Assembly: GCA_020350725.1 (NCBI GenBank)
Contig: CP070719.1
Location: 899,109 to 963,108, forward strand
Source of the DNA: a bacterium
Lineage (GTDB): Bacteria > BMS3Abin14
DNA length: 64,000 nucleotides
Reading direction: 5' to 3'
The notes below the pieces were generated by a model. It was not told the origin of the DNA and made no database searches. It saw only the letters and a program-made list of their open reading frames with translations. The stretch's first letter is position 1, and the number at the start of each line of letters is the position of its first letter. A program made the position numbers and the translations under genes. Of the stretch, positions 9,727-61,133 are shown one piece after another.

Positions 9727-9782
9727 CGGTTCTCGGTCCTCCGTGCTCAGTTCGCGGTCCTCACCTCTTCGTTCTGCATCCT
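9727..9782. repeat. degenerate tandem heptamers (8 units)
   Basis: Eight 7-bp units in register between lptB and rpoN, for example CGGTTCT, CGGTCCT, CCGTGCT, CAGTTCG, CGGTCCT. The array ends three bases before the lptB stop codon. One of a family of intergenic heptamer arrays in the window. Confidence 0.8.
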
Positions 9783-9784
9783 CT

Positions 9785-10507
9785 TCACAGACTGAAACCG
9801 TCCCCCAGATAGACCCTTCTGGCCTCCCTGCTGGAGGCTATCTGGGCCGGGTCCCCTTCCTCCAGTATGCGGCCGCCGGCCAGTATGTAGGCCCGGTCGG
9901 TGATGCCGAGCGTTTCCCTGACATTGTGGTCGGTGATCAGGACACCGAGGCCCCTGTCCTTGAGTATTCCTATGAGCCCCTGGATCTCGAGAACCGTCTT
10001 CGGATCGATCCCCGCAAAGGGCTCGTCGAGAAGAAGATAGTGGGGATCCGAGATGAGGGATCTGGCGATCTCCACTCTCCTCCTTTCACCCCCTGACAGA
10101 TTGGCTCCCAGGCTGTCCTCAAGGTGACCGATCCCCATGGAGTCTGAAAGATCCTCCAACATGGACGCCTGGGATCTCTTCGGAACGCCAACCGCCTCCA
10201 TGATCGACAGCAGATTTCCCTTGACCGTCATCCCTCTGAATATCGAGGGCTCCTGGGGAAGATATCCCAGGCCAAAGCGGGCTCTTCTGTGAATGGGCCA
10301 GTTCGTAATATCGACGCCGTTCAGGTAAACCTGCCCTCCATTGGGTCTTACCAGCCCCGATATCATGTAAAAGGCCGTTGTCTTGCCTGCGCCGTTGGGG
10401 CCCAAGAGCCCGACAACCTCTCCCTGGTTGAGGGCAATGGAGACGCCGTCAACTACCGTCTGTCCCCGGTAGGTCTTTACCAGTGAGTCGGCCCTGAGCT
10501 GCATCAT
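9785..10507 (-). CDS. lptB: LPS export ABC transporter ATP-binding protein LptB
   Basis: ATPase that powers LptFG-dependent extraction of LPS from the inner membrane. 240 aa, normal. Walker A GPNGAGKT at 36-43, Q-loop in GYLPQEPSIFR, ABC signature NLSGGERRR, Walker B YLLLDEP, and switch His in LITDHNVRETL. Start ATG at 10507 overlaps the lptA stop (ATGA). The lptC-lptA-lptB order before rpoN is the classical one. Confidence 0.97.
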   Translation of the reverse strand: MMQLRADSLVKTYRGQTVVDGVSIALNQGEVVGLLGPNGAGKTTAFYMISGLVRPNGGQVYLNGVDITNWPIHRRARFGLGYLPQEPSIFRGMTVKGNLLSIMEAVGVPKRSQASMLEDLSDSMGIGHLEDSLGANLSGGERRRVEIARSLISDPHYLLLDEPFAGIDPKTVLEIQGLIGILKDRGLGVLITDHNVRETLGITDRAYILAGGRILEEGDPAQIASSREARRVYLGDGFSL

Positions 10508-10968
10508 GGTTCGTCCCCCCCGGGCAGTATCTTTGCCTTTACCGGGCCTTCGAACCTGGCAAGACCGTTATCGACCTGGTAGGCAATTCTCGCTGCGCTT
10601 ATCCTGCTGCCTCCCCGCGTCAGGTGGGGCGAATCCTCAAGTTCAACAACCCCTCTTTTTATATCGAAATAAGCACTGCCCGCTTCGAGCCTGTCCTCCA
10701 GGCGGGTAAGGCGGACATCCCCCATGGCTTGGCCCCTGACCACCTCCCCCGTCCCGCCCCCTTCTGTGAAGAGGATCAGGGTATTACAGGACATTTCAAC
10801 ATCCCCGTACTCGAGCGTGACGCCCCCTTCGAAACGGATCTCGCCCCTGGCTTCTTCGATCTGGAGGGTGTCGGCCCGTATACTGATCTCCCTCTCTGAA
10901 CCGGCATGCCCTGGAGGGGCCATGACAAGCAGCAGGATGGCGAACAGGCCGGAAGCTGTCCTAATCAT
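10504..10968 (-). CDS. lptA: LPS transport periplasmic protein LptA
   Basis: Periplasmic bridge of the Lpt machine. 154 aa with an N-terminal signal peptide (hydrophobic residues about 8-17, likely cut after GHAG) and one OstA/LptA beta-jellyroll region: ISIRADTLQIEEARGEIRFEGGVTL is the typical opening. Its start overlaps the lptC end by 8 bp. Confidence 0.92.
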   Translation of the reverse strand: MIRTASGLFAILLLVMAPPGHAGSEREISIRADTLQIEEARGEIRFEGGVTLEYGDVEMSCNTLILFTEGGGTGEVVRGQAMGDVRLTRLEDRLEAGSAYFDIKRGVVELEDSPHLTRGGSRISAARIAYQVDNGLARFEGPVKAKILPGGDEP

Positions 10969-11500
10969 CTTCTCTCACCGAACCGTCGAACCTCCAGACG
11001 GACCGGACCTTTCCGTCGAGGATGGTGCGCCGGTCGCCTATGGAATAGTGCAGCCTCTCTCCCCAGACCGTGATCTCGCGGCTGACCAGTTCCACTCCCT
11101 CCTTCGACTGAATCGTTCCCTCACCTCCGTTCCACTCCATGACAGGGGTGGTGAACCGATAGCCTGCATCGGTCCTGATCGTCACGTTTCCCTCCAGGGA
11201 GAGGATCTTTTCTGCCGACCTGAAACGTCCGTGTGAACCCTGGACATCCACCCTGGTGATCGTCCCGTCAATGAGCTGGGCCCTGACTTCCTCGAGAACG
11301 GCTTCGGTCTGTGCATAGTAACTGGCCTCCGACGCCACGATCTCCCATCGGCCCGACTCCCCCTCCTGAGCCACCCTGAATCCGGTAATCTTGATTTCCG
11401 GGGGGCTGGCGAAGGACATCTTGGGCGACAGCAGGAGAAGACAGAGGGCCCCCAGGAGCAGGCCCCTGGAGTGTGCCGGGATGGTAATTCCCAATGTCAT
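10961..11500 (-). CDS. lptC: LPS export protein LptC
   Basis: Inner-membrane anchored link between LptFG/B and LptA. About 179 aa from the ATG at 11500; a TTG at 11530 is also in frame and neither has a clear ribosome site, so the start is uncertain. One N-terminal hydrophobic anchor (GLLLGALCLLLL), then a jellyroll domain similar in layout to LptA. Identification rests on position before lptA-lptB and on the fold pattern rather than on a strong motif. Confidence 0.85.
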   Translation of the reverse strand: MTLGITIPAHSRGLLLGALCLLLLSPKMSFASPPEIKITGFRVAQEGESGRWEIVASEASYYAQTEAVLEEVRAQLIDGTITRVDVQGSHGRFRSAEKILSLEGNVTIRTDAGYRFTTPVMEWNGGEGTIQSKEGVELVSREITVWGERLHYSIGDRRTILDGKVRSVWRFDGSVREDD

Positions 11501-11741
11501 GGGAGACAGATTAGCACAAAGCGAGAGCAAATGAAAGAATGTGGCGTAAAAGTTGCATGAGGCTTACCCGGCGGCTGGTTCGCCGGGTTTGGAGATCCGG
11601 CCTGCCCCGAACGGCAATCGGGGGTTGGGGGTTTGCATTTTACTGCTTGTTCTAACGGCGACTTCGAGGGGGGATGTGGGTGAATGGTTTACCGCTTCCT
11701 GTTGCAGCTGAGGGGAGCCATTATCCCGGCCTGATTCGGGC
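11501..11741. other. kdsC-lptC intergenic region with two hairpins
   Basis: 241 bp. Two clear stem-loops: a 7-bp stem CCCGGCG/CGCCGGG at 11567-11587 and a 6-bp stem CCCCGA/TCGGGG at 11605-11623. Neither is followed by a T-run in the direction of the flanking genes. They could attenuate or process the kdsC-lptC transcript; function unknown. Confidence 0.5.
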
Positions 11742-12242
11742 TCACACCAGGTATCTTTCCATCACTCCATCCCAAAGCCCCTTCGCCTTGAGAATGAGGA
11801 CGATCACCTCCCTGCCGGCGCCCATTCCCCCCGAGGCATCCGTGATCAGGTCTGCCGCCTGCCTGACCTCCTCGGGGGCATCGGCAACGGCACAGCCCAG
11901 CCCTACTCTCCGGATCAGGGGAATGTCCACCACATCATCACCAAGATAACAGATCTGGTCAGGCTCGAGGCCGGTAGTTGCGAGAAGCTCACCGAGGGCG
12001 ACGACCTTCTCCTTGACCCCCTGGTAAACATGGCTTATGCCGAGCTCCTCGGCTCGGACCGCCACCATGTCGCTCCTTCGCCCGGTGATCAGGGCGACCT
12101 GGAGCCCGGCTCTTTGGGCCAGCTTCATCGCGTGACCGTCTCGGACATGAAAGGATTTGATCTCATGTCCTTGAGATGTGTAGTGTATCTTTCCGTCGGT
12201 GAGAACACCGTCGACGTCGAAAGCGATAAGCTGGATCCTCAT
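11742..12242 (-). CDS. kdsC: 3-deoxy-D-manno-octulosonate 8-phosphate phosphatase
   Basis: HAD phosphatase that turns Kdo-8-phosphate into Kdo. 166 aa, typical of the cap-less KdsC family. Catalytic motif FDVDGVLTDG at about 8-17, motif II ITGRRS, and the late motif CYLGDDVVDIP. The ATG at 12242 gives the family N-terminus. It lies with kdsD, kdsA and kdsB in one leftward run, so the whole route from ribulose-5-phosphate to CMP-Kdo is encoded here. Confidence 0.95.
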   Translation of the reverse strand: MRIQLIAFDVDGVLTDGKIHYTSQGHEIKSFHVRDGHAMKLAQRAGLQVALITGRRSDMVAVRAEELGISHVYQGVKEKVVALGELLATTGLEPDQICYLGDDVVDIPLIRRVGLGCAVADAPEEVRQAADLITDASGGMGAGREVIVLILKAKGLWDGVMERYLV

Positions 12243-12322
12243 TGCCGCGTCGTGGACCCTGGCGTGATGTTTACCCGCAGTCAATCGTACTCCCTCCCCC
12301 TTTTTATCCTGTACCCTTTGCT

Positions 12323-14121: not shown

Positions 14122-14130
14122 ATCAATTGG

Positions 14131-14279
14131 CCGGTTCACAGTTTCCGGTTCACAGCTTACCGTTTAGATACCTCCGTGATCTGGAACGTGTGATTCGTGA
14201 TCGATCGACAGTTCCACCTTTCGGACTCCCAAAGGCTGGTTCGCCGTTCACAGTTGGTACCTGGAACCGGGAACTGCTT
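14131..14279. repeat. heptamer-type repeats upstream of kdsA
   Basis: Five units in register at 14131-14165 (CCGGTTC, ACAGTTT, CCGGTTC, ACAGCTT, ACCGTTT) and a looser set at 14238-14279 (CGTTCAC, AGTTGGT, ACCTGGA, ACCGGGA). They fill much of the pyrG-kdsA gap and the first array overlaps the possible GTG start of kdsA. Confidence 0.65.
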
Positions 14280-14320
14280 TCTTTTCACCCTCTCGCCCAG
14301 GTTCCAACCGTCCTGCCGTC

Positions 14321-16758
<2,438 letters not shown>

Positions 16759-16761
16759 CCG

Positions 16762-17766: not shown

Positions 17767-18158
17767 GGGAATTGTTTGCCTCCACTGAAAGAAGAAAACC
17801 CAGCATTCAGGGTCCAGTGCCCAAGGTAAAACCCGCATTTAGGTCTTTCACTGAAAGGCTTTTGTCGAATCAATATTCTACCACCTGATATCTGATTTCC
17901 AGTCTCTAACTCCTAACTATATCCTCCTGGATTGAACCTTAAACATCTACTTGTACAATTTTGAAGGGTCCCTTGCAAGAGCGATCCGGGGTTGCCAACA
18001 GCGAGATTGTTAAATACAGATCGTTGTGATACATACCACCTTTCAAGGAACAGTTCGACAACGCTTTTAACACTCTCTCTCAAAGATTGTCAGCATCCCG
18101 AGTATCCCCATTGACCTGGAGATGGACATAAGAATATCGATCAAACTGTCCCGCCGCT
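17767..18158. other. divergent intergenic region
   Basis: 392 bp between the leftward Kdo/heptose genes and the rightward glycan genes, so both promoters should lie here. I find no convincing TTGACA/TATAAT pair in either direction. A heptamer-type run lies at 17885-17919 (CTGATAT, CTGATTT, CCAGTCT, CTAACTC, CTAACTA). The rest is of moderate AT content with no ORF worth calling. Confidence 0.5.
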
Positions 18159-35082: not shown

Positions 35083-35110
35083 GATCCAGAGTCCAAAATC
35101 CAAATCCCGG
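35083..35110. repeat. heptamer repeat, left arm
   Basis: Four units upstream of gmhB: GATCCAG, AGTCCAA, AATCCAA, ATCCCGG. Opposite in orientation to the related units at 35214-35234, so the two can be read as an imperfect inverted pair about 100 bp apart. Confidence 0.65.
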
Positions 35111-35213
35111 AATAATGATCTCAAAAGAAGTGGGCCGCACCCTGGAATACCGACTGGAGCACCACACATTGGGTGAAGGAGAACACTCCCTGATCCCGCC
35201 AGGAGTCCTGCTT

Positions 35214-35234
35214 TTGGATTTAGGATTTAGGATT
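35214..35234. repeat. heptamer repeat, right arm, encodes lpxL stop
   Basis: Three units TTGGATT, TAGGATT, TAGGATT on +. Read on - they form the last codons and the TAA stop of lpxL (35220), so the repeat sets that gene's C-terminus. Confidence 0.7.
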
Positions 35235-36128
35235 TTGACCGATCGATTCCCCTTCCGGCCTGGTTTTCCACCTGTTGTGTATCCACATCCACTGCTCCGG
35301 ATATCTGCGCACGACCTTTTCCGTCCAAAGGGTGTAGGCTTTCGTCCTCTCCTTAACGTCCTCTTCCTTGTCCTGGAGCGGCGTCCACGTCATGACGGGT
35401 TCAATAACGATCCTGTGCTTCCTTCCTGTGCGGTGAATGTAGGCCGGCACGACCGCTGCCCCTGTTTTCCTGGCCAGGACACCCAAACTGCTCAGGGTGG
35501 AGGCCTCCCGGTTAAAGAAAGGGACGAAGATGCCGTCTTTTGCCAAGGCGTTCTGGTCCAGAACGAAACCGACGATCCCTCCATTCCTGAGGTGCTGAAG
35601 GATTTCCCTCATGTTGCCGCTGCCGGCGAAAACCGTGGCCCCGGATGATTCCCGGGCCATTATCACCGCCCTGTTAACCGCTACGTTCCTGATGTTCTTG
35701 GTTATGCTGCCCATGGGATACCCCCGAAGGGCCAGGGCAATGCCCAGCAGATCGACGTTGTCCAGATGAACGGTAAGGAGAAGGACTCCCCGCCCTTTGT
35801 CCAGGGATGACCGGAGATGCTCCTCGCCGACAAAATCGATAATGCCGTCTATTCTGTGGCCCATAAGGGATGGAAAAGCCAGGTACTCCATGAAGGCCAT
35901 GCCCAGGTTCATGAAGGACCTCCTGGCAATGGATCTTAATTCCTTTTCCGAATGGGTATCTCCCAGGGATTGCCTGAGGTTGTCCATCGCCAGCCGTCTC
36001 CTCCTGCCAGCGAGAACATACCCGAGCAGCCCGATCGGTTTGCCAATTTCCAGCGCCCAGAACCGGGGCAAAACCCGCCCGAACGCAAACAATAACCTTA
36101 ACAGGGCCGAGATGATCCGATCAGCCAT
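35220..36128 (-). CDS. lpxL: lysophospholipid/lipid A acyltransferase LpxL/HtrB family
   Basis: 302 aa inner-membrane enzyme that adds a secondary acyl chain to Kdo-lipid A. Hydrophobic N-terminus; catalytic HX4D pair is His121 and Asp126 in TVHLDNVDLLG; GFVLDQNA and the WMWIHNRWKTRP tail are typical. ATG 36128 overlaps the lpxK stop and has GGAG six bases upstream. The last residues come from a heptamer repeat. Only one LpxL-type gene is in the window. Confidence 0.9.
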   Translation of the reverse strand: MADRIISALLRLLFAFGRVLPRFWALEIGKPIGLLGYVLAGRRRRLAMDNLRQSLGDTHSEKELRSIARRSFMNLGMAFMEYLAFPSLMGHRIDGIIDFVGEEHLRSSLDKGRGVLLLTVHLDNVDLLGIALALRGYPMGSITKNIRNVAVNRAVIMARESSGATVFAGSGNMREILQHLRNGGIVGFVLDQNALAKDGIFVPFFNREASTLSSLGVLARKTGAAVVPAYIHRTGRKHRIVIEPVMTWTPLQDKEEDVKERTKAYTLWTEKVVRRYPEQWMWIHNRWKTRPEGESIGQNPKS

Positions 36129-37218
36129 CTCCTGCTCCGCCGGCACGCTCTCCCACCAGGGAAATGACACGGTCGATGAGGATGTCCTCACCCGAGAGAA
36201 ATACTGCGTCCATCGCCAGGGCATAGCAGGGAATCGTCGGACGACGGGACGGCCAGCGTACCAGATCCTTCTCCGTGGTCAACAGTGCCCGGGCTCCCAT
36301 CTTTTCAGCCCTCTCGGAAAGGAAGTTCACCTCATGAGATGAATACCGGTGATGATCCCGAAAACGGACATGGTCGACCACGATCAGGGGCAACTCTCTC
36401 AGGGACAATTCGAAAGAACGGGGGTTGGCGATCCCGGAAAACGCCAGGAAATGTGTGGATTCGAGATCTCTCACGTTCAATACCCTGTCCTCTCCGGGAT
36501 GGATGAGTCCCACAGGAACATAGTTGGCCCAGGATATCGGAGCATCGGTCATTTCCTTTAGACTTCCGGTGAACTTTTCATCAATGGCCCCCGCTTTGGT
36601 GACCACGATGAAGTCGGCGTCCCTCAGCCTGGTTGCGGGCTCCCGCAGGATACCGGAGGGAATCAGGGTGCCATTGCCCAGCCTTCTGTGATCGTCGATA
36701 ACCACAACATCAAGGTCTCGGTGAAGGGCAAAATGTTGAAATCCGTCATCCAACAGGAACAGGTCAATTTCCCTTCTGCCGATGGCGTACAACCCCGCCC
36801 GATATCTGTCGGCGCAGACATAAATGGGCACATCCTCCAGTTTTTGGGACATGAGTGTCGGTTCGTCGCCGGCCCGCAGGGCTCCCGGTCCGATGGAATC
36901 GTGGAGTTCCGAGATCGCTCCCTTCTTTCCTTCCTTAAAACTACCGTACCCTCTTGTGAGAACAGCAACCCTGATCCCTCGTTTCCGGAGGCGGGACGCC
37001 AACCATATCACGAGGGGCGTCTTGCCGCCCCCGCCCACCGCAATGTTGCCCACACTGACAACCGGCCTGGGAAGTCGTCTGATCCTCCTGAGCCGGCGGC
37101 GAAATATCATTCGATTAAAGGCACTTACAGCGCCGTACAGAAGGGAAAGGGCAAACAGCAGGGGGATCAGCCAGAACGGGGGCCCGTCCAGAATCTTTGC
37201 CAGACCTCTACGATCCAT
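36121..37218 (-). CDS. lpxK: tetraacyldisaccharide 4'-kinase
   Basis: 365 aa. N-terminal membrane helix (about 14-34), then Walker A VGNIAVGGGGKTPLV (about 55-69) typical of LpxK; DDGFQHFALHRDLDVVVID is the second conserved block. Phosphorylates the lipid A precursor made by LpxB. ATG 37218 lies six bases after the Trm112-like gene. Confidence 0.95.
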   Translation of the reverse strand: MDRRGLAKILDGPPFWLIPLLFALSLLYGAVSAFNRMIFRRRLRRIRRLPRPVVSVGNIAVGGGGKTPLVIWLASRLRKRGIRVAVLTRGYGSFKEGKKGAISELHDSIGPGALRAGDEPTLMSQKLEDVPIYVCADRYRAGLYAIGRREIDLFLLDDGFQHFALHRDLDVVVIDDHRRLGNGTLIPSGILREPATRLRDADFIVVTKAGAIDEKFTGSLKEMTDAPISWANYVPVGLIHPGEDRVLNVRDLESTHFLAFSGIANPRSFELSLRELPLIVVDHVRFRDHHRYSSHEVNFLSERAEKMGARALLTTEKDLVRWPSRRPTIPCYALAMDAVFLSGEDILIDRVISLVGERAGGAGDG

Positions 37219-37411: not shown

Positions 37412-37446
37412 GATGAAGGTTGAAGGGTTAAGGGTTCCGTGGTCAG
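37412..37446. repeat. heptamer repeat
   Basis: Five units between the Trm112 and DUF374 genes: GATGAAG, GTTGAAG, GGTTAAG, GGTTCCG, TGGTCAG. Confidence 0.6.
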
Positions 37447-37511
37447 CACATAATCCAAAACCGAAAAATACAAATTATCCCCTGTTCGCAATCTCTTTTC
37501 TCTATCCTCTC

Positions 37512-38237
37512 TTAATTACCTTTCCCCTTTCCGCTTTCCACTTTCTTCCTCCCCGCTATTCTGTCTGCCTCCTCCTGGAGGGAGAGCATGCGATCACTCA
37601 GGTTTGTCCGGTCCCGCTCCATGGAATCACGATCCATGTCCGGATCGAAATGCATCGGTTCGCCGAAAAGGATAACCGCCCGCGCGAAGGGGACAGGAAG
37701 CATATACCTGTCCCAGGCTTTTTCCAAGACGACAGCCGGATTCATTGAAGCCGACACCGGAATGACCGACGCCCCGGTTTTTTTCGCCAGGTAAATGACA
37801 CCCGGCTTCACCTCATGAAGCGGACCTCGGGGACCGTCCACCGCCAGGGTTGCGTGATATCCTTCCCCCATGGCCTTTTTCATCCCGATCAGACCTCTCG
37901 CGCCGCCGCGAGAGGTTGACCCTCGGACGATGCGGTGCCCGAAACCCGCCAGAACCTGGGCCTGTAATTCCCCGTCCCGGCTCATGCTGGACATGACCGT
38001 GGTCTTTCTTCCTGCAAAATAGGACACAAGAGGAAACTGTCTGCCGTGGAAGAAGGGGATAATGGCGCACTCACCTTTACTCTCTACGGAGTCGAGCCAC
38101 CCGATTCCGAAATCAGCGATCCTGAGGGTGCCGTAGAGCAGGCGGATAAAGGACCTCACCAAGACGACGGTCAGGTGCCCCTTCAAACCCATCGATCCCC
38201 GGTCACCGACAGGATCGGATGTCATGCACTGATTCAA
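37512..38237 (-). CDS. DUF374 lysophospholipid acyltransferase family protein
   Basis: Up to 241 aa. DUF374 pattern: IIPFFHGRQFPLV (acyltransferase His region), then SRDGELQAQVLAGFG, RGSTSRGGARGL and AVDGPRGPLHEVKPGV. Probably a membrane-linked acyltransferase for lipid A or phospholipid, as it lies in the lpxK-msbA run. Start is ambiguous: TTG 38237 (TTGA overlap with msbA stop, GAGG ten bases off), ATG 38225 or ATG 38192, the last giving the usual family N-terminus. The Lys/Gly-rich C-terminus is encoded by a heptamer repeat. Confidence 0.85.
   Translation of the reverse strand: MNQCMTSDPVGDRGSMGLKGHLTVVLVRSFIRLLYGTLRIADFGIGWLDSVESKGECAIIPFFHGRQFPLVSYFAGRKTTVMSSMSRDGELQAQVLAGFGHRIVRGSTSRGGARGLIGMKKAMGEGYHATLAVDGPRGPLHEVKPGVIYLAKKTGASVIPVSASMNPAVVLEKAWDRYMLPVPFARAVILFGEPMHFDPDMDRDSMERDRTNLSDRMLSLQEEADRIAGRKKVESGKGKGN
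37519..37546. repeat. heptamer repeat inside the 3' end of the DUF374 gene
   Basis: Four near-identical units CCTTTCC, CCTTTCC, GCTTTCC, ACTTTCT. They lie seven bases inside the stop codon and encode the basic tail KKVESGKGKG. Confidence 0.7.
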
Positions 38238-41357: not shown

Positions 41358-42452
41358 ATGAAAATCCCCATGGTGGACCTGAAAGTCCAATACCAGGGAC
41401 TTAAGGACGAGATCGAGGAGGGCATCGGAGAGGTCCTGGAGACGGCCCGGTTCATCCTGGGTCCTAACGTCCAATCCCTCGAGGAGGAGGTGGCATCCTA
41501 CTGCGGGGTCAAGCACGCTGTCGGCGTCGCTTCCGGTACGGATGCACTCCATCTGGCCCTCAGGGCGTGCGGGATCGGTGCAGGTGATGAGGTGATCACA
41601 TCTCCGTTCACCTTCATCGCCACGGCGGAGGCCATATCGTACACCGGCGCACGCCCCGTTTTCGTGGATATCGACCCCAGGACGTTCAATATCGATCCGG
41701 ACCTCATCGAAAAGGCGATCACAGGGCGGACAAAGGCCGTGCTGCCCGTACACCTGTTCGGGCAACCGGTGGATATGGATCCGATAAGAGACATCTGCCG
41801 GAGACATTCCCTCAGGATCATTGAGGATTGCGCCCAGTCATTCGGGGCCGATTACGGATCGGTAAAGACCGGGGCAATAGGTGACGCCGGATGCTTCTCC
41901 TTTTTCCCGAGCAAGAACCTCGGCTGTTACGGTGACGGCGGCATGGTGATCACCGACGATGACACCGTTGCCGAAGAGGTCAGGGTCCTCCGCAACCACG
42001 GCAGCCGCATCCAGTACCATCACTCCAGCATAGGGTATAACAGCCGTCTGGACGAGATCCAGGCTGTTGTCCTCCGGACCAAGCTGAGGCGCATCGACGC
42101 TTTCAACGGCAGGCGGCGCGCCAACGCTGCAAGGTACACCGAGATCCTGGTTGGAAGCGGGATCGTCACACCTTTCGAGGACGAAAAGGGATTGCACGTC
42201 TACCACCAGTACACCGTCATGAGCGACCGCCGCGAAGAGCTCAGGCAGGCCCTTGCCGATCAGGGTATTGCCAGTGCAGTCTACTATCCAATCCCCCTTC
42301 ACAGGCAGGAGGTCTACGGGAAGGAGTGGAAGGGTGTTTCCCTGCCGGTTTCCGAGGAAACCGCTTCAAAGGTCCTCTCCCTGCCCATGTACCCGGAGCT
42401 TTCCCGGGTGCAGATCGAAGAGGTCTGCGACACCCTGACAGAGGTCCTTTAG
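41358..42452 (+). CDS. gnnB: DegT/DnrJ family aminotransferase, GnnB-like
   Basis: 364 aa PLP enzyme. IPMVDLKVQYQGLKDEI opening, GTDALHLALRA, EDCAQSFGA and PLP Lys in FSFFPSKNLGCYGDGG. Predicted to place an amino group on C3 of the 3-keto sugar from GnnA, giving UDP-2-acetamido-3-amino-2,3-dideoxyglucose. AAAGGA upstream of the ATG; its stop overlaps the lpxB start by one base. A close WbpE-like relative for another sugar cannot be ruled out by sequence alone. Confidence 0.85.
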   Translation: MKIPMVDLKVQYQGLKDEIEEGIGEVLETARFILGPNVQSLEEEVASYCGVKHAVGVASGTDALHLALRACGIGAGDEVITSPFTFIATAEAISYTGARPVFVDIDPRTFNIDPDLIEKAITGRTKAVLPVHLFGQPVDMDPIRDICRRHSLRIIEDCAQSFGADYGSVKTGAIGDAGCFSFFPSKNLGCYGDGGMVITDDDTVAEEVRVLRNHGSRIQYHHSSIGYNSRLDEIQAVVLRTKLRRIDAFNGRRRANAARYTEILVGSGIVTPFEDEKGLHVYHQYTVMSDRREELRQALADQGIASAVYYPIPLHRQEVYGKEWKGVSLPVSEETASKVLSLPMYPELSRVQIEEVCDTLTEVL

Positions 42453-43621
42453 TGGAATTACCGATGGCGGGCCAGGCATCGGAGCGACGTGCCCTGATCG
42501 TCGCGGGGGAGGCATCCGGAGACCACCACGGCGCCAGCCTTGTCTCCGAGGCTGCGAAGATCGATCCGGACCTAACCTTTTTCGGGGTCGGCGGACCCCT
42601 GATGGTCAAGGCCGGGTGTGACGTCCTCATTTCCTACGAGGAACTCATGGCCTCCGGTTTCGTGGAGGTCGTCAGACATTTTCCCTCCATCCTGAAGGTT
42701 TTCCGGCGTTTAAAAAGGATGTTGACGGGGGGCGAGAGGCCGGATGTCCTCGTTCTCATTGATTATCCGGATTTTAACCTGCGCCTGGCCGAACACGCCA
42801 AACGGGCCGGGATACCTGTCCTGTTCTTCGTCAGCCCGCAGGTGTGGGCGTGGAGGAAGAGCAGGGTCAGGAGGATCGCCGGAGCGGTGGACAGGCTGGC
42901 CGTCATCTTCCCCTTCGAACCGGAACTCTATCGGGGACTGGACATTCGGGTCGATTACGTCGGCAATCCCCTCATGGACGAGGCCTTCATCGGCATCGAG
43001 CGGGAACTCTTTCGTCGACAGCTCGGCATGGATGCGGCAGACACCGTGGTGGGCCTCTTCCCGGGGAGCCGGCCGCACGAGATCCGGTACAATCTGGACA
43101 CCATCCTCAGGGCCGCAGCTATCGTGGCGCGAAGAATTCCCTCCGCCCAGTTTCTCCTTCCCCTCGCCCCCTTTCTCCCGGAGGAGAACGTCAGAACGAG
43201 CGTGGAAAGCTCAGCCCTTCCTGTTACCATAACGTCCGAGAGGATCTACGATGTGGCCAACGCCTGTGACGCGGTGATCACGGCGGCCGGAACCGCTACC
43301 CTCCAGACAGCCCTCATGGGGACACCGATGGTGATTCTGTACAGGATGTCCCCCATCAGCCACGCCATCGCAAGGCGTTTGGTCAGACTCGAGTATATCG
43401 GCCTTGCCAACATAGTCGCCGGCCGGGGAGTCGTGCGGGAGTTCCTGCAGGAACAGGCTGACCCGGACAACATCGCCGAAGAGGTCCTCCGCATCCTTCT
43501 GGACGAGGACTACCGCCAGGGTATCAAGGAGGGGCTGGCCGACATCAGGGCAAAGATGGGAGAACCTGGATGTTCGGCCCGGGTGGCGCACATCGCCTCG
43601 GAGATGAGCAAGGGAAGGTGA
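42452..43621 (+). CDS. lpxB: lipid-A-disaccharide synthase
   Basis: 389 aa GT19 enzyme that joins UDP-diacyl-GlcN to lipid X. N-terminal IVAGEASGDHHGASLV; VSPQVWAWRKSRV and LFPGSRPHEI are the family signatures; AAGTATLQTALMGTPMVILYRM is the donor site. I use the GTG at 42452 (GAGG seven bases upstream, overlapping the gnnB stop as TAGTG). Reading into lpxB from gnnA-gnnB is the main sign that those two serve lipid A. Confidence 0.95.
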   Translation: MELPMAGQASERRALIVAGEASGDHHGASLVSEAAKIDPDLTFFGVGGPLMVKAGCDVLISYEELMASGFVEVVRHFPSILKVFRRLKRMLTGGERPDVLVLIDYPDFNLRLAEHAKRAGIPVLFFVSPQVWAWRKSRVRRIAGAVDRLAVIFPFEPELYRGLDIRVDYVGNPLMDEAFIGIERELFRRQLGMDAADTVVGLFPGSRPHEIRYNLDTILRAAAIVARRIPSAQFLLPLAPFLPEENVRTSVESSALPVTITSERIYDVANACDAVITAAGTATLQTALMGTPMVILYRMSPISHAIARRLVRLEYIGLANIVAGRGVVREFLQEQADPDNIAEEVLRILLDEDYRQGIKEGLADIRAKMGEPGCSARVAHIASEMSKGR

Positions 43622-43640
43622 TCGTCCGACGCCAAGCGTC

Positions 43641-43668
43641 CGTGATTGGTGATTCGTGATTTGTGATT
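43641..43668. repeat. heptamer repeat, left arm of inverted element
   Basis: Four perfect-register units of the form xGTGATT (CGTGATT, GGTGATT, CGTGATT, TGTGATT) just after the lpxB stop. Matches the reverse complement of 43781-43808 at 25 of 28 positions. Confidence 0.85.
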
Positions 43669-43780
43669 TGGTTGTGAATCGATTGATTCAGTGACCATTG
43701 GGGATTATTCAAGTATATTTGCAAAGAATCTTGTCCGAAATAATAGTTCTCTATAATTTGGTTCGCAAGCGGCATTGGCT

Positions 43781-43808
43781 AATCACGAATAACGAATCAC
43801 AAATCACG
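43781..43808. repeat. heptamer repeat, right arm of inverted element
   Basis: Four units AATCACG, AATAACG, AATCACA, AATCACG, the inverse of 43641-43668. The 112 bp between the arms is AT-rich and without an ORF. The whole element fills the gap between the convergent lpxB and lpxA-like genes and could fold into a long hairpin. Confidence 0.85.
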
Positions 43809-43812
43809 TCCT

Positions 43813-44604
43813 TTATCTCGCAAACCCCCTCCTGCCGGACAGAAGAAACTCCATCAGGTGCTCGACCTCTGGCGTCGCGTCTCCGGAAGATCGGATTCTG
43901 GCCAGCGCGTCGTTGAGGAGAAGACCCTTTCGGAATATCGTATCGAAGGCGTCCTGAAGGCTGGATATCGACTTCCCTGAGTACCTGGCTTCTTTCAGGC
44001 CGGCCACATTCAGACCGACAAGTTCGGCTCGATCGCCTCTGGCGGCGCAGAAGGGCGGGATGTCCTTGACCACGATGCACCCCCTCTCGAGGGAAGCCAG
44101 TTTACCGATCCTGCAGAAGGGATGAACGGAACTGAAGCTTCCGAGATGGGCTCCGTCTTCTACGTCGACGTGCCCCCCGGGGTTGGCTCCACTCTCGAAT
44201 CTGACACCGCAACCGACCGTGCTGTCATGAGCCACGTGCGCACAGGCCATGAAGACGTTGTTGTCCCCGATCCTCGTCAGGCCCCTTCCCGTGGTCGTTC
44301 CCCGGTGGACGGTGCAGCACTCGCCGAATACGTTGCCATTACCGATAATGACCTCCGTGTCCTCACCCCTGTACTTGAGGTCCTGAGGGTCACCTCCCAG
44401 GGAGGAGAAGGGGAGAACCTGGTTGTCGGTTCCCATGATCGTTATTCCCATAATAACCGTGTTGGGCCCGATCCGGCTTCCTGATCCGATCCTTACGCGC
44501 GGCCCGATCACAGCGTGGCTGCCGACGACAACGCCATGGTCCAGTTCCGCGCCGGGCATGACGACGGCTCTGGGATCGATAGAGGTCTCGATGCCTGTTT
44601 TCAT
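43813..44604 (-). CDS. LpxA-like acyltransferase, divergent paralogue
   Basis: 263 aa left-handed beta-helix protein with the LpxA C-terminal helical domain. Catalytic His126 (E. coli H125), His123, His145 and His161 are kept, as is PQDLKYRGE. But E. coli Gln161 is Pro, Glu200 is Ala, Arg204 is Glu (GLKEARY) and the acyl-ruler Gly173 is Arg. So it should bind an acyl-ACP, but the acceptor and chain length are probably not those of the standard enzyme. A normal LpxA is two genes upstream (45544). ATG 44604 has a weak ribosome site. Confidence 0.85.
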   Translation of the reverse strand: MKTGIETSIDPRAVVMPGAELDHGVVVGSHAVIGPRVRIGSGSRIGPNTVIMGITIMGTDNQVLPFSSLGGDPQDLKYRGEDTEVIIGNGNVFGECCTVHRGTTTGRGLTRIGDNNVFMACAHVAHDSTVGCGVRFESGANPGGHVDVEDGAHLGSFSSVHPFCRIGKLASLERGCIVVKDIPPFCAARGDRAELVGLNVAGLKEARYSGKSISSLQDAFDTIFRKGLLLNDALARIRSSGDATPEVEHLMEFLLSGRRGFAR

Positions 44605-46815: not shown

Positions 46816-47856
46816 TCAGCTCTCCTTTTTATCTGCCTCGGACAGCCTCTTTACGGCCCTCTCCAGTTCGGCGATCCTGGATCTCATGGATTCGAGGTTC
46901 CTCACGAGAACCGTCGACCGCCTCCACTGCCCGGCATCAACGGCCGGAATACCTCCAACCACAGCGCCCGCCGGGACGTCCTTAATGATGAGGGACTTCG
47001 CCAGGACCACGGATCCGTCCTCCAGATTTAGATGTCCTGCGATGCCCACCTGACCGGCCAAAGTCACCCTGTCGCCAAGGGTGGTGCTGCCTGAAATGCC
47101 CACCTGCGCCACAATGAGGGAGTTTTTCCCTATCTTTACGTTGTGGGCAACCATGATCAGGTTGTCCAGCTTGCAGCCGTCGCCGATGACCGTCTCACCC
47201 ATCACGGCTCTGTCCACAGTGCAGTTCGCCCCGATCTCGACGTCGTCACCGACCCGCACGGTGCCGGCGTGGATGATCTTCCGGTAGTTCTCATCCTCCC
47301 TGGCAAAACCGAATCCGTCACCGCCGATGACGCAGCCTGAATGAACGATGCAGCGGCGGCCGACGATGACCTCCCTCTCCAGGACGACGTGGGGATGGAG
47401 AACACTGTCGTCGCCCACCCGAGCGCCCGGCCCGAGATAAGTGCCGGCCATCAGGGTGACCCGGTCGCCGACAACAGCCCCCTTCTCGACAACGGCGAAG
47501 GGGTGGATCGAGGGGTCGGCTCCGATGGCCGCTCCGTCATGGACGTGGGCAAGGGGGCTGATGCCCGAGCCGGAATATTCCACCCCGTAGAAGACCTCCA
47601 TTGCCTTTGCGTAGGCGAGGTAGGGGTCATCGGCGATCAGGAGGTTCTTGCCCTCATCGGAACAGCCCTTTGAAACAATAACAGCTTCCGCCCTGGTGGT
47701 GGCAAGGAACTCTCCGTATCTGGGGTTTGCGATGAAGGTCAGATCCCCTGGTCCGGCTTCCCTAACGGGACGGACAGCCGAGACCTTCGCGGTTCCGTCA
47801 CCCACCAGCTCCGCTCCGATCAGTTTCGCCAGGTCCTTGAGGGCAAAGCCGGTCAA
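46816..47856 (-). CDS. lpxD: UDP-3-O-acylglucosamine N-acyltransferase
   Basis: 346 aa: N-terminal uridine-binding domain (about 1-95), hexapeptide beta-helix (about 100-295) with catalytic His in MVAHNVKIG, and a C-terminal helix. TTG start at 47856 overlapping the skp stop (TTGA), GAGG four bases upstream. Adds the amide-linked acyl chain at C2. Confidence 0.95.
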   Translation of the reverse strand: MTGFALKDLAKLIGAELVGDGTAKVSAVRPVREAGPGDLTFIANPRYGEFLATTRAEAVIVSKGCSDEGKNLLIADDPYLAYAKAMEVFYGVEYSGSGISPLAHVHDGAAIGADPSIHPFAVVEKGAVVGDRVTLMAGTYLGPGARVGDDSVLHPHVVLEREVIVGRRCIVHSGCVIGGDGFGFAREDENYRKIIHAGTVRVGDDVEIGANCTVDRAVMGETVIGDGCKLDNLIMVAHNVKIGKNSLIVAQVGISGSTTLGDRVTLAGQVGIAGHLNLEDGSVVLAKSLIIKDVPAGAVVGGIPAVDAGQWRRSTVLVRNLESMRSRIAELERAVKRLSEADKKES

Positions 47857-48395
47857 TTTCCCTCTCCCCCTTTGTTCTGCTCGTTGTATATCTTGACCAC
47901 ACTCTCGGTCAGATCAACCACGTCCTGGGCAAAGACCACACCGCTGCTGCTCCTCTCGAGGATGATGGTATATTCGTCCCGCTTGCCGATTTCACGGGCT
48001 ATGCCGACCAGACCATCCAGGATCCTGCCGGAAAGGGCCTGGTTCTCTTTCTCCTCTTCCTCCCTTGCCTTGGCAACGAATTCGAGGAGTTCGCCCTTCT
48101 TCCTGCGGAAACGCTGCTGCAGATCGGCCTGAGCGTCTTCGCTCAATACCGGGCTTTTGAGCTTCTCTTCCATGGATGCGAGCTCAGCCTGCATGGCGTC
48201 GATCTCATCCTGTTTCACCTGGTGCTTTCTCCTCAGCGTCTCCTTTGCCGCCTGCCCTTCCGAGGTGGCATTCAGCGCCTTCTGGAGATCTATGACACCG
48301 ATCTTGACCATGCTCGCCGACTCGGCATCTCCCGGGTGGAAGACGCTCGCGACAGCAAAAAGAACAGCCCCGAAGAGAATCAAACGTTTTATCAT
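47853..48395 (-). CDS. skp: OmpH/Skp family periplasmic chaperone
   Basis: 180 aa with a signal peptide (about 1-27). KIGVIDLQKALNATSEGQAAKETL opens the mature part; a long charged coiled coil (about 55-130) forms the tentacle arms. Holds unfolded outer-membrane proteins for BamA, the adjacent upstream gene. ATG 48395 has AGGAGG eight bases upstream. Confidence 0.92.
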   Translation of the reverse strand: MIKRLILFGAVLFAVASVFHPGDAESASMVKIGVIDLQKALNATSEGQAAKETLRRKHQVKQDEIDAMQAELASMEEKLKSPVLSEDAQADLQQRFRRKKGELLEFVAKAREEEEKENQALSGRILDGLVGIAREIGKRDEYTIILERSSSGVVFAQDVVDLTESVVKIYNEQNKGGEGN

Positions 48396-48415
48396 CCTGA
48401 TATCCTCCTGAAATA

Positions 48416-48450
48416 CAGTCCAGAGTCCAGAGGCCAGAGTCCAGGGCCCG
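48416..48450. repeat. heptamer repeat between bamA and skp
   Basis: Five units: CAGTCCA, GAGTCCA, GAGGCCA, GAGTCCA, GGGCCCG, about 20 bp upstream of skp. Confidence 0.8.
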
Positions 48451-48528
48451 AGGCAGGACTTCATTTCACACGGAATGGTTGACCCCGTTTCCCAGTAACC
48501 TCAGGGCGCGTATCCAGATCACCCATTT

Positions 48529-50885: not shown

Positions 50886-50891
50886 TTCTTC

Positions 50892-52794: not shown

Positions 52795-52803
52795 TGGACA
52801 CCC

Positions 52804-55949: not shown

Positions 55950-55999
55950 CTTGTCCTCCCCGGGGAAACCACCCCCACACCGAATGTACCACCCTGTCC

Positions 56000-56176: not shown

Positions 56177-56222
56177 TGGTCACCTCCTGGTGTGGTGTTC
56201 CAGAATGATGCTTGAAGGTTCG

Positions 56223-56334
56223 AGTTTCCAGTTTGATCCCACCTGCCTCTCCACCTCGGGCGGACTTGAGCCTCTTCGGACCACCGGCAACCTCAAAGCG
56301 TAAACCGTGATCGGTGACAATCAAACTGGAAACT
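56223..56334. repeat. inverted repeat of heptamer type
   Basis: A perfect 15-bp inverted repeat, AGTTTCCAGTTTGAT at 56223-56237 and its complement at 56320-56334, with 82 bp between. Each arm is two related heptamers (AGTTTCC, AGTTTGA). It lies between the OmpA-like gene and the 58-aa ORF. Confidence 0.8.
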
Positions 56335-56359
56335 GTGCGCTTTTACCCTATCGCGCTTC

Positions 56360-57733: not shown

Positions 57734-58591
57734 CTACACCAGCCTGAACGGCGCGGGGACGAACGTGAGGACGAATATGGCCAGGGCGATGAATCCGAGT
57801 TTTCTTCGTCCGGGGTCCAGTTCGATGTGATCCATGAGGACCGGCGGATGGCCGACACCGATGAAAATAAGGACCAGGGCCCATACGAGCCACCCCTCCC
57901 AGAATATGATGCCCATGGCGATAAGGGAGAGGTGGATGATGCGGGCCACCAGATCGAACCGGACCGGGAACATGGCCTTCGCGATATGCCCGCCGTCCAG
58001 CTGGCCCACGGGAAGGAGGTTGAGGGATGTCACGAACAGCCCGATCCAGCCGGCGAAAGCCACCGGATGGAGGACCACTGTGGCATCATGAGGCAGGTTT
58101 CCGAGGATGAGCTTCCCGGTGAGGGCCACGATAAGGCTGTCGCCGAGCACGAAACCCACGGTCTCCTCACCCGTAGCGGGGAGCACCTCGGAGAACAGGA
58201 AGCCGATGGCGAGGGCAGGGAGAGCGACCAGAAAACCGGCCAGGGGACCTGAAACCCCGATGTCCAGAAGGGTCCTCCTGTCCCAGATAACCCCCTTCAT
58301 CCGGATCAGGGCACCGAAGGTACCGATGATGGAAGGGGCGGGGATAAAGTAGGGAAGGGTTGCCGGTACCCGGTGCCGATGGGACGTCAGGTAGTGTCCC
58401 ATCTCGTGGACCCCGAGGATGGTCATCAGGGTGAGGGAAAAAGGAAGGCCGGATACCAGGGACAGGGGATCGGAGAGAGGGTTGTTCCCCCTCTGAAGAG
58501 CACCGGCGGCGGTGGTCGTCAGCAGAGTCAACAGGAAGAGCGTGATGTGGACTCCGTGATTTCCTTTTACCGGACTGACGTCGCGCATCAT
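57734..58591 (-). CDS. site-2 protease family (M50) membrane metallopeptidase
   Basis: 285 aa, five or six membrane helices. Zinc motif GVHEMGHYL (HExxH) and the late NLLPVGQLDGGH motif are intact, so it should be active inside the membrane. Substrate unknown; no anti-sigma factor is nearby. Two adjacent ATGs (58591, 58588) with no strong ribosome site. Confidence 0.9.
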   Translation of the reverse strand: MMRDVSPVKGNHGVHITLFLLTLLTTTAAGALQRGNNPLSDPLSLVSGLPFSLTLMTILGVHEMGHYLTSHRHRVPATLPYFIPAPSIIGTFGALIRMKGVIWDRRTLLDIGVSGPLAGFLVALPALAIGFLFSEVLPATGEETVGFVLGDSLIVALTGKLILGNLPHDATVVLHPVAFAGWIGLFVTSLNLLPVGQLDGGHIAKAMFPVRFDLVARIIHLSLIAMGIIFWEGWLVWALVLIFIGVGHPPVLMDHIELDPGRRKLGFIALAIFVLTFVPAPFRLV

Positions 58592-58596
58592 TAATT

Positions 58597-58680
58597 CAGT
58601 GTCCAGGATCCAGTCTTAGTCCTTAGTTCTCAGTACAGAGTTCTCAGTTCTTAGCACTTGAGTACTAAGTCCTTAGCGCT
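58597..58680. repeat. tandem heptamers, 12 units
   Basis: Twelve units in unbroken 7-bp register: CAGTGTC, CAGGATC, CAGTCTT, AGTCCTT, AGTTCTC, AGTACAG, AGTTCTC, AGTTCTT and four more. It fills the HAD-M50 gap almost exactly. Confidence 0.9.
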
Positions 58681-58684
58681 ATTT

Positions 58685-59401
58685 TCACCACAATCCCAGG
58701 ATCCTCCCCAGCTCCTCCAGATCCCCCCTCATGTCCGGGTCGACCCTGCCGGTTCCACGGTGGATGACGTTGCGCTCGACGAGGAAGGTCTTCATGCCCA
58801 CTTCAGCGGCCGGCAGGTCCTGTTCGACGTCGTTGCCCACCATGAGACATCTCTCCGGGTCGACTCCAAGGGCGTCGGACATCTCGATGAAATACTCCCT
58901 CTGGGGCTTGCAAGATCTCATGTGGTCCAGGACCGAGATCACGTCGAAGAGCCCCGGCGCAAGTCCTCCCCAGCGCAGTCGCTCCACCACCGATTCGGCC
59001 GGGAAAATGGGGTTGGTGGCCAGGGCGAGGCGAAGCCCCTTTTCCCTTGCTGCCCTGACAAAAGGTTCGGCTGACGGGGCCGCGGATCCCTGGTCGGAGT
59101 GTCCGGGAAAGACCTCCAGGTAGTAAGCACGGAAGACCTTTTCAGCCAGGGAGGCGTCGAGCCCGGTCATCCTCTCGAATGCGGAGTAAAAGGCCTCCCG
59201 GTTGGTCTCTCCGTCCCTTCTGGGAGCCGACAGGATGGCATCGATGGCCCCGTATAGACCGTCGCTGAAGACGGCCGGATCCAGGTGGGGGCGGAAATGA
59301 TCCTGCATGGACTTGATCATGGTGTCCAGAAAAAAAGAGACCTCGATGTCTATCAGGGTGCCATCGAGGTCGAGCAGCAAGGCCTGGATCCCCTTTAACA
59401 T
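58685..59401 (-). CDS. HAD family hydrolase
   Basis: 238 aa. Motif I LLDLDGTLID, motif II LALATNP, motif III CKPQ with a downstream MVGNDVEQDLPAA. Resembles phosphoglycolate-phosphatase-like or YjjG-type HAD enzymes; the substrate cannot be told. ATG 59401, GAGG four bases upstream. Confidence 0.88.
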   Translation of the reverse strand: MLKGIQALLLDLDGTLIDIEVSFFLDTMIKSMQDHFRPHLDPAVFSDGLYGAIDAILSAPRRDGETNREAFYSAFERMTGLDASLAEKVFRAYYLEVFPGHSDQGSAAPSAEPFVRAAREKGLRLALATNPIFPAESVVERLRWGGLAPGLFDVISVLDHMRSCKPQREYFIEMSDALGVDPERCLMVGNDVEQDLPAAEVGMKTFLVERNVIHRGTGRVDPDMRGDLEELGRILGLW

Positions 59402-59429
59402 GTCACCTCTGGTGGAAACGGTGTCACGA

Positions 59430-60671: not shown

Positions 60672-60679
60672 GTCACGTC

Positions 60680-60913
60680 CTAACCCTGTTTTTCCTGGAT
60701 GTAGTTAATGGCGTCCTGAACAGTCTGGATCTTTTCGGCATCCTCATCCGGTATCTCCAGGTCGAAAGCCTCCTCGAAAGCCATGACCAGTTCGACAACA
60801 TCCAGGGAGTCCGCGCCAAGATCGTTGACGAAATGGGCATTGACGTCGATACTGTCTGCATCCTGGTTGAGCTGCTCAGCTATGATCTCATTGATTTTCC
60901 CGGCTACGTCCAT
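60680..60913 (-). CDS. acpP: acyl carrier protein
   Basis: 77 aa, acidic. Phosphopantetheine Ser36 lies in [13 protein letters not shown]. Very strong ribosome site (AAGGAGG, five bases). Carries the growing acyl chain for the fab genes here and the donors for LpxA and LpxD. Confidence 0.97.
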
Positions 60914-60935
60914 AGGTCCCTCCTTAAAGGCAGTT

Positions 60936-61020
60936 TCTAGCTTCCAGGGTCTGGTTTTTGGGTCTAGGTTATAGTGTCTGGTTTCCGGTGTCTAGGTTCG
61001 AATTTCCAGTGTCTGGATCC
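60936..61020. repeat. tandem heptamers, 14-bp super-period
   Basis: About twelve units upstream of acpP: TCTAGCT, TCCAGGG, TCTGGTT, a 6-bp unit, then TCTAGGT, TATAGTG, TCTGGTT, TCCGGTG, TCTAGGT, TCGAATT, TCCAGTG, TCTGGAT. Two sub-themes alternate. Confidence 0.85.
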
Positions 61021-61056
61021 CCTTTTCTGCAGGGTCAAAATGTATATATATCCTAT

Positions 61057-61133
61057 GTTCCGAGTTCTCGGTTCCCAGCTCTCAGTTCTTAGCTCTTAGT
61101 TCCTAGCTCTTAGCCCTTTGCCCTTTGCCCTTT
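61057..61133. repeat. tandem heptamers, 11 units
   Basis: Eleven units in perfect register: GTTCCGA, GTTCTCG, GTTCCCA, GCTCTCA, GTTCTTA, GCTCTTA, GTTCCTA, GCTCTTA and three GCCCTTT. It ends ten bases from the fabG stop. Confidence 0.9.

Follow-up and report, generated by a model that had tools for sequence, protein, structure and literature searches.

Many-word heptanucleotide arrays with inverted pairing and a common outward polarity in the intergenic DNA of a bacterial genome and its family

The stretch of DNA analysed here, hereafter the window, comprises 64,000 nucleotides (bases 899109-963108) of a bacterial genome that consists of a single contig of 2,777,163 bases (2.78 Mb; our label G000). 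Many of its intergenic gaps carry degenerate tandem arrays with a 7-bp step, as the original prediction, made from the letters of the window, had proposed for ten places. All ten display the register when printed, and seven reach our score threshold of 8.5, with those at 14131 (7.0), 17885 (7.8) and 35083 (8.2) falling short. In the window alone, 11 intergenic lag-7 segments score at least 8.5, compared to 0-1 at the other lags between 4 and 13 and 8 at lag 14, a harmonic; dinucleotide shuffling of the 29 gaps of the window yielded a mean of 0.03 and a maximum of 1 segment in 200 shuffles. Tandem Repeats Finder (TRF), which demands cleaner copies, recovered just portions of some of these arrays. 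Genes were called with a home-made codon-usage finder that calls protein genes only, so that some gaps may hold RNA genes and some starts may be wrong. The arrays, with the spacer of one inverted pair, are listed below without strand.

9724..9782, degenerate 7-bp array of GTTCTCG/GTCCTCA type, score 12.1, 2 bp from gene 9785-10507 (-)
14132..14166, weak array of GTTCACA type, score 7.0
14239..14276, array GTTCACA ... CCTGGAA, score 10.9; by eye, the second half resembles the reverse complement of the first theme
17883..17918, weak array CTGATAT ... CTAACTC, score 7.8
35085..35108, short array GTCCAAAATCC, score 8.2; by eye, left arm paired inversely with 35210-35237
35210..35237, array GGATTTAGGATTTTG, score 13.0, overrunning the end of gene 35220-36146 (-); 64% in the gene, counted as coding
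37412..37477, array TTGAAGGGTTAAGGG, score 13.4; by eye, left arm paired inversely with 37492-37545
37492..37545, array CCTTTCCCCTTTCC, score 15.3, overrunning the end of gene 37512-38192 (-); 63% in the gene, counted as coding
43642..43670, left arm (GTGATTN)4, score 15.3, in a convergent gap, 20 bp from the stop of gene 42452-43621 (+)
43671..43778, spacer between the arms, by eye with no resemblance to the other printed spacers
43779..43807, right arm of four AATCAC-type units (one AATAAC), score 12.4, reverse complement of the left word, 5 bp from the stop of gene 43813-44604 (-)
48415..48458, array GAGTCCA/GAGGCCA, score 17.4, with up to 13 partner gaps
56206..56234, array absent from the original prediction, score 9.4
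56277..56317, array absent from the original prediction, score 9.0
58595..58680, array filling the 93-bp gap between genes 57734-58591 (-) and 58685-59401 (-), score 18.2
60932..61013, array of AGTTTCT/GGGTCTA/GTGTCTG type, score 16.3, upstream of gene 60680-60913 (-)
61047..61138, array of AGTTCTT/AGCTCTT type with a 14-bp super-period (TRF period 14), score 36.5

The window was extended by 20 evenly spaced 20-kb stretches of the same genome (464 kb in total, hereafter the sample) and compared with stretches from relatives of the same and of other families. The family set comprised 12 genomes (G000-G011), of which ten, all but G005 and G006, were sampled and nine entered the polarity tests, whereas 18 of 19 other-family genomes were sampled (all but G013). 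In addition, 80 named loci, being the surroundings of relatives of one window gene and thus not random genome samples, were searched; 78 of these form the distant set, with L022 and L023 left out as near relatives, and their other-family status is based solely on 47-56% identity. The best named neighbour by one window protein is CP070698.1, the metagenome-assembled 'bacterium isolate bin582', at 65% identity. Between tests, the minimum gap length varied (30, 40, 60 or 80 bp). Unmasked gaps of up to 400 bp (320 bp in the terminator and fold comparison) were used to test pairing, polarity, array edges and folding, and the polarity tests covered arrays that do not span the gap centre.

Autocorrelation at lag 7 in intergenic versus coding DNA and shuffled controls, the check proposed with the original prediction, was run on the sample and bore it out. 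In gaps of at least 40 bp, lag-7 matching reached z = 33.7, with harmonics at lags 14, 21 and 28 (z = 24.2, 14.0 and 9.2), and the neighbouring lags 6 and 8 gave z values of 9.8 and 9.7; coding DNA had a lag-7 ratio of 0.95. Scored intergenic segments numbered 173 at lag 7, 45 at lag 8 and 3-9 at lags 5, 9, 10, 11 and 13. The 7-bp period thus exceeds other periods in intergenic DNA, as is the case for heptanucleotide long simple sequence repeats (SSRs). Dinucleotide shuffles of 266 unmasked gaps contained on average 1.4 segments (maximum 5 in 20 shuffles) vs 148 observed, and arrays make up 8,929 of 62,706 gap bases (14%). The 7-bp arrays are therefore real, strong and genome-wide, a firmer result than the original prediction claimed. 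The claim that they never sit in the middle of a gene nearly holds, except that 14 coding lag-7 segments were found in the whole sample, vs 5-8 at lags 4, 5, 8, 10 and 11, and that in the window the longest open reading frames enclose the arrays at 35085 and 48415 (47853-48464 for the latter, if an upstream ATG is used), which are intergenic solely by the later start codon of the finder. Among the non-harmonic lags between 4 and 13, lag 8 ranks second behind lag 7 outside genes (45 segments in G000 and 32 in the relative G008), and in G008 long octamer arrays of the TAGACACC/TAGATACC type (L123 4346-4496 and L130 13832-14036) stand beside heptamers.

Nine of the ten sampled family genomes contain 10-72 lag-7 segments per 100 kb, the top value, that of G011, resting on 13 kb; 100 kb of G007 (98% complete) contain 25 arrays, and in G009 the first 9 kb examined held no segments and another 40 kb held three. 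Of 18 other-family genomes, 14 had 0-5.6 segments per 100 kb when first surveyed, and G012, G022, G027 and G029 had 16-24, although the excess in G022 vanished with more sequence (8 segments vs a control mean of 8.75). In the 80 named loci, lag 7 accounted for 112 segments, lag 8 for 30, and lags 5, 10, 11 and 13 for 7-18. The 7-bp period is thus widespread but patchy.

The original prediction saw a different theme in each gap, which is a fair description of the window places but not of the genome. The arrays are degenerate overall, with exact 7-bp tandem dimers in 61 of 273 sample gaps; these dimers fall on 66 words (rotation and strand ignored), and 156 gap pairs have a word in common, compared to a mean of 11.7 (maximum 25) with permuted word letters and 8.6 (maximum 21) with random gap 7-mers. 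The commonest words are AAAATCC (12 gaps), ACTCTGG (8), AATCTCT (6) and AATCACG (6), the second being the word of the window array at 48415-48458, and GTGATTNGTGATTNGTGATT occurs 139 times in the whole genome, with its reversed control occurring twice. Within the window, the gap containing 43779-43807 matches up to 13 other sample gaps and the region 14134-14274 up to three, and the gap of the array at 9724-9782 is not among the window gaps matching other sampled gaps. Seven words are common to G000 and G008 (2.67 expected; 7 of 1000 permutations as high) and four to G000 and G007 (1.26 expected; 18 of 1000), whereas sharing between G000 and G003 is not clear (2 vs 0.59 expected; 111 of 1000), and a word list common with the 78 distant loci was rejected (1 word vs 2.99 expected). 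Words are shared by 0.391 of 87 pairs within a gap, 0.258 of 132 pairs in adjacent gaps and 0.191 of 1418 pairs in random gaps; matching of words across a gene, as in gene cassettes, is hence weak at most.

Homology extends at least 20 bp past the array in 72 of the 173 sample arrays and is confined to the array in 48, whereas 53 have no match at E 1e-4, a number that depends on the threshold, given that at a laxer one all 94 tested G000 arrays match at least one other gap. By eye, the printed gaps are mosaics in which the same modules are repeated in similar order. Because words recur and longer dispersed mosaics exist, array sequence also appears to spread between loci. Units drift along an array: in arrays of at least 49 bp, identity between units one to five steps apart declines from 0.638 through 0.530, 0.449 and 0.383 to 0.355, and transitions account for 45% of lag-7 mismatches, vs 33% expected from composition. 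From one period with different words, the original prediction had argued for a shared birth process rather than one mobile sequence. The shared birth process is supported: the genome and its family combine a single period with many different words, and the units drift, which fits a slippage-like birth. As a clean alternative to mobility it is not supported, because recurrent words and dispersed mosaics show spread between loci. One mobile sequence as the full explanation is rejected, 101 of the 173 arrays having no homology past the array or no match at E 1e-4. That plain local slippage acted alone, with each array born in place and no copying between arms or loci, is very improbable: the 7-bp excess in the more distant loci and the lineage specificity of the words are consistent with it, but the word-sharing gaps, the dispersed repeats, and the inverted pairs and polarity described below are not.

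Dispersed repeats that are not heptameric also occur in array gaps (L109 9429-10599, L118 15401-17256 and L110 10343-11143), namely CCCTTCGACAGGCTCAGGGCAGGC, GTTGTCATTGCGAGCC...GTGAAGCAATCTCG and CCACAGAGGACACAGAGG; similar strings are presumably present in unrelated bacteria. In addition, a stretch of ~160-226 bp made of GAGGTATC/CTCGATACTT steps is found at several places with ~88-93% identity.

Many gaps share an architecture that the original prediction overlooked, together with the polarity described below: a word array, a spacer and a reverse-complement array (36 printed), exemplified in the window by 43642-43670 and 43779-43807. Same-word pairs within gaps were 17 inverted and 4 direct in G000 (56 pairs; 3.2 expected from different-gap pairs), 13 and 1 in G008 (26 pairs; 1.9 expected), and 12 and 2 in the 78 distant loci (20 pairs; 1.2 expected). 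At a threshold of 12, an inverted partner in the same gap was found for 28 of 94 arrays in G000 (94 of the 173 arrays being covered by this test owing to the gap limits), 23 of 51 in G008 and 24 of 72 in the distant loci, and a direct partner for 11, 2 and 8, respectively, with a null for inverted partners of 3-8%. The spacers of the 17 inverted pairs of G000 span 15-157 bp and most spacers, judged by eye, are unrelated. The arms agree in word but not in unit order (16.4 vs 15.4 for shuffled units; p <= 0.1 in 6 of 45 pairs), which is what independent turnover of the two arms would produce, and selected exact palindromes are disfavoured, because the arms are not collinear. In the relative G008, a near-perfect array of 14 ATCGGTG units that overruns a called gene end has a degenerate inverted partner (L125 866-964), and a second ATCGGTG array lies at C1:476042-476130; the former is possibly a recent expansion and could serve as a marker for strain comparison.

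A given word tends to point away from the gene. Across nine family genomes, with each array read outward from its nearer gene, word-sharing arrays of different gaps had the same rather than the opposite orientation in a ratio of 1197:442 (p = 0.0002), with 224:72 in G000 (p = 0.0002), 69:36 in G008 (p = 0.0054) and 225:58 in the seven other family genomes (p = 0.0002). The p-values were obtained by random flipping of whole gaps (5000 flips, giving a floor of 0.0002). This permutation assumes independent gaps, an assumption violated by copies that share descent. Copying in either direction, however, leaves the polarity of an inverted pair unchanged, so that the descent of pairs may itself be among the causes of the polarity. 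The bias is present among stop-side arrays (419:197), among start-side arrays (293:37), between the two (646:248) and among lone arrays (392:119), and a simple comparison of word-sharing inverted pairs gave 82 of the same and 42 of the opposite polarity. Family gap ends without arrays showed no significant bias at three thresholds (1468:1400, 663:631 and 236:232; p = 0.11, 0.20 and 0.44). Because start and stop sides behave alike, the polarity is a rule of gap geometry rather than of transcription direction, and it would be expected if the elementary object were an inverted pair with a fixed left word. Counted by arrays rather than gaps, CCAAAAT reads outward 18 times and inward once, whereas AGTACTT (2:2), ATTAGAG (7:4) and GTTCC (24:13) showed no clear bias. 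Stop-codon content was ruled out as the cause, the outward strand being richer in stop codons at 3' ends (4.89 per 100 nt on the sense strand vs 3.57) yet poorer at 5' ends (3.63 vs 4.65). The distant loci gave 100:56 (p = 0.0022), but their non-array ends are also slightly biased (1151:1020, p = 0.0023), and we therefore make no claim of polarity for them.

Arrays are densest in convergent gaps (0.195), followed by co-directional (0.142) and divergent ones (0.112), and their density is 0.02 in the 10 bp preceding a start, 0.10 in the first 10 bp past a stop and 0.20 at 20-30 bp. The proposal that they end within 3-10 bp of stop or start codons was correct for stops only: among 218 arrays in unmasked gaps of 60-400 bp from ten family genomes, 82 begin or end no more than 12 bp from the 3' end of a gene, vs 32.6 expected from random placement in the same gap, whereas 26 come as close to a 5' end, with no excess over the 22.7 expected. 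A crude detector, applied to non-divergent gaps of 80-320 bp in G000 and G008 without matching of gap length, found fewer terminator-like hairpins where arrays are present (5 of 86 gaps) than where they are absent (22 of 135).

The placement at stop codons, the peak in convergent gaps and the scarcity of other terminator-like sites are features one would expect if the arrays were selected as RNA hairpins, either transcription terminators or 3'-end stabilisers, and the window gap 43622-43812 indeed folds into a hairpin of -62.5 kcal/mol (z = -3.96). However, three other window stretches fold no better than shuffled sequence, or barely so: the gap holding 37412-37477 (z = 1.34) and 35090-35220 (z = -0.38) are not significant, and the partly self-complementary array at 58595-58680 has z = -1.84. 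The overall shift of array gaps is small (median z of -0.94 vs -0.38 in G000, Mann-Whitney U test, p = 0.058; p = 0.018 in G008), the arms are not collinear beyond the word, and the polarity is present on the start side too, all of which render this explanation improbable.

In kind, the arrays belong with described intergenic arrays of hepta- and octanucleotides, which they extend by combining many words with one geometry. The original prediction noted that heptamer arrays are known from cyanobacteria, which is correct, but further reports concern Xanthomonas, Geobacter metallireducens and Beggiatoaceae, and heptamers are the most frequent class of long SSRs in most genomes. The long-SSR survey of Mrazek (2007), as reported in PMC4692102 and PMC4679880, found heptanucleotides to be the commonest class, with slippage involving a 7-nt polymerase contact proposed as the cause; the 7-bp excess is the same here, but the survey concerns statistically long runs, and the passages citing it do not mention word sharing, inverted pairing or polarity. 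Heptamers are over-represented in many bacterial genomes, which PMC4692102 likewise connects to slippage over a 7-nt polymerase contact. The closest parallel in polarity is offered by the GGGAATC arrays of Xanthomonas, which are intergenic, sense-strand copies lying close to stops and antisense-strand copies close to starts, with 70 and 75 convergent pairs in two genomes, whereas Nostoc, with GGGGA(T/C)T, has few pairs (PMC4692102). The same outward polarity and convergent pairs are found here, but those systems use one G-rich G-quadruplex word and ours uses many; a G-quadruplex family was rejected, as only 7 of 218 arrays fit the pattern. The TAACTGA arrays of Beggiatoaceae, which consist of one word that in most cases points towards start codons, Maribeggiatoa having one indirect repeat (PMC4679880), and the cyanobacterial short tandemly repeated repetitive (STRR) sequences, for which two Cyanothece strains differ mostly by indels in 7-nt increments, resemble our arrays in being intergenic heptamer arrays. 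Among the matches listed in open-licence PubMed Central, judged by title and start of the abstract, none concerned arrays of many different words that combine the matching of words inside a gap with one shared outward polarity. When seven words, three of them STRR words, were searched in the family sample as exact dimers in the printed rotation, six occurred in no gap and GTGATTA (H. pylori) in one.

The longer dispersed repeats raise the possibility that the arrays are remains of miniature mobile elements resembling repetitive extragenic palindromes (REP/REPIN) or miniature inverted-repeat transposable elements (MITEs), with array-like terminal inverted repeats. REP/REPIN copies likewise come in pairs of opposite orientation, which usually lie 3' of coding regions and separate unidirectional or convergent ORFs, and they are associated with RAYT transposases (PMC3733652). 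The 72 arrays within longer homologous stretches, the high identity of some copies over 160-226 bp, the recurrence by eye of hairpins with a similar loop (L110 6055-6164, L118 16206-16299 and L121 10477-10539) and two Y1 transposase matches in G000 favour such an origin. By contrast, the remaining 101 arrays lie outside such stretches, most inverted-pair spacers look unrelated, and no Y1 match was found in the array-rich genomes G007, G010 and G011 (completeness 98, 71 and 91), such that the distribution of Y1 transposases does not follow that of the arrays. Inspection by eye, rather than a systematic search, showed neither a constant tag nor one conserved palindrome (the GTAG/CGTC tag and, for MITEs, target duplications were not searched for). 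Overall, we consider mobile-element remains distinctly unlikely as the explanation.

We give about even chances to a different reading, in which two inversely oriented arrays with a 7-bp, sometimes 8-bp, step form the basic element of repeats that are dispersed over the non-coding space directly past stop codons; the arrays would be born by slippage and copied as hairpin-like pairs. This reading builds on the observed period, common words, inverted pairing, outward polarity, 3'-end placement and unit drift. Arrays would grow by replication slippage with a favoured step of 7 nt that is overlooked by mismatch repair (MutS is present in G000, with 994.9 bits), and near-perfect arrays such as that of ATCGGTG in G008 count in favour of this mode of growth. 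A second copy of the word would be laid down inverted in the same gap via hairpin-type template switching, array-bearing pieces would also spread to other gaps, so that the polarity of a word stays constant, and both arms would afterwards decay through point mutation. Selection would keep coding sequence and start regions free of arrays, any benefit to the cell being putative.

SbcCD is a hairpin nuclease that cuts long inverted repeats, and for this reason it was suspected to be missing in the family. Indeed, SbcD (TIGR00619) had no match better than 8.2e-5 in any of the 12 family genomes, all of which seem to be without the nuclease, whereas 14 of 19 other-family genomes match at 3.6e-7 or better and 5 of the 31 genomes exceed the curated cut-off; the SbcC model (TIGR00618), yielding mostly partial SMC/ABC ATPase-like matches, was of little use. 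In the phylum of G027, SbcD is missing from four of four genomes, with 7 arrays in 40 kb of G027, 4 in 48 kb of G033, 2 in 57 kb of G032 and 0 in 29 kb of G034.

Several results weigh against the slippage-and-copying reading. SbcD loss is not sufficient, because G015 and G025 lack SbcD and have no arrays in 78 and 76 kb, which rules it out as the sole cause, nor is it necessary, because arrays also occur (4 in 17 kb) in G029, for which SbcD matches below the cut-off; with shared descent uncontrolled, SbcD absence is at most a permissive factor. Inverted pairs did not exceed direct ones in G007 and G003 combined at a threshold of 11 (3 and 3 of 13 pairs), or when all G000 gaps were compared by shared 6-mers (28 and 28 of 202 pairs), the inverted excess appearing with unmasked gaps of 60-400 bp and a different similarity score. 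The relatives compared are of the same family or of other families, with none of the same genus among them. Slippage and template switching alone predict no fixed polarity per word at many loci. Neighbouring GTGATTN units share their free base in only 8 of 100 cases vs 31.7 expected (first 100 of 139 G000 triplets), opposite to naive slippage, although copies by descent inflate the deficit; the family samples, among them part of G000, show it less strongly (11 of 49 identical, with 0.33 expected), and it is no general rule for other words. This avoidance could reflect common descent or the loss of exact repeats by deletion. Finally, unit columns vary unevenly and alike across loci: mismatches in columns 1-7 number 2, 8, 20, 1, 14, 19 and 50 for GTGATTC (104 units, 36 gaps), corresponding to GTGATT with a loose seventh base, and 5, 11, 6, 10, 35, 48 and 9 for CCAAAAT (98 units, 52 gaps), corresponding to CCAAA with two loose bases; of ten words tried, GAATAGG (24 units) lacks the pattern. 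Uneven columns may stem from inheritance from common founders or from constraint.

Such columns also fit binding sites, and the recurrent arrays might accordingly represent paired, directional putative sites for one or more global regulators or chromosome-organising proteins. A precedent is provided by Geobacter metallireducens, in which tandem octamers and heptamers, mostly paired on opposite strands at variable distance and present in many copies, as are ours, were predicted to be sites of a global regulator (PMC2700814). Recurrent words and an outward polarity independent of transcription direction point in the same direction. The Geobacter sites, however, fall into few defined classes (GTTGCTYN, TCTCCGTS[Y] and MTYCTGA), with GGGACCG elements also inside genes, whereas here many degenerate words per genome (66 exact ones in the sample) are matched within gaps and have edges at stop codons. 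Furthermore, arrays of words with few other copies in the G000 sample have an inverted partner at least as often (2 of 3 and 4 of 10) as arrays of common words do (22 of 81), albeit with small numbers and a lax threshold, and the words are not those of the distant loci. We thus regard a binding-site role as possible but rather unlikely. The combination of 7-nt slippage, inverted copying within the gap, spread and decay accounts for most features, with polarity and uneven columns leaving room for a binding-site function.

Heptamer repeats have so far been reported piecemeal, each with its own explanation, be it G-quadruplexes, a regulator site, translational control or slippage. Here, many words follow one geometry in one bacterial family, with inverted pairing found in more distant loci as well, and this common geometry speaks for a shared origin or a shared reader instead of functions tied to individual words. 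Step size between strains, polarity and word sharing are simple tests applicable to any genome. More speculatively, and in our estimate with a low probability, the layout, in which a word is inverted across the gap and points away from the gene at start and stop alike, could supply directional gene-boundary marks read by a putative protein or by hairpin-forming DNA, the vocabulary of which would turn over between lineages while the 7-bp step stays.

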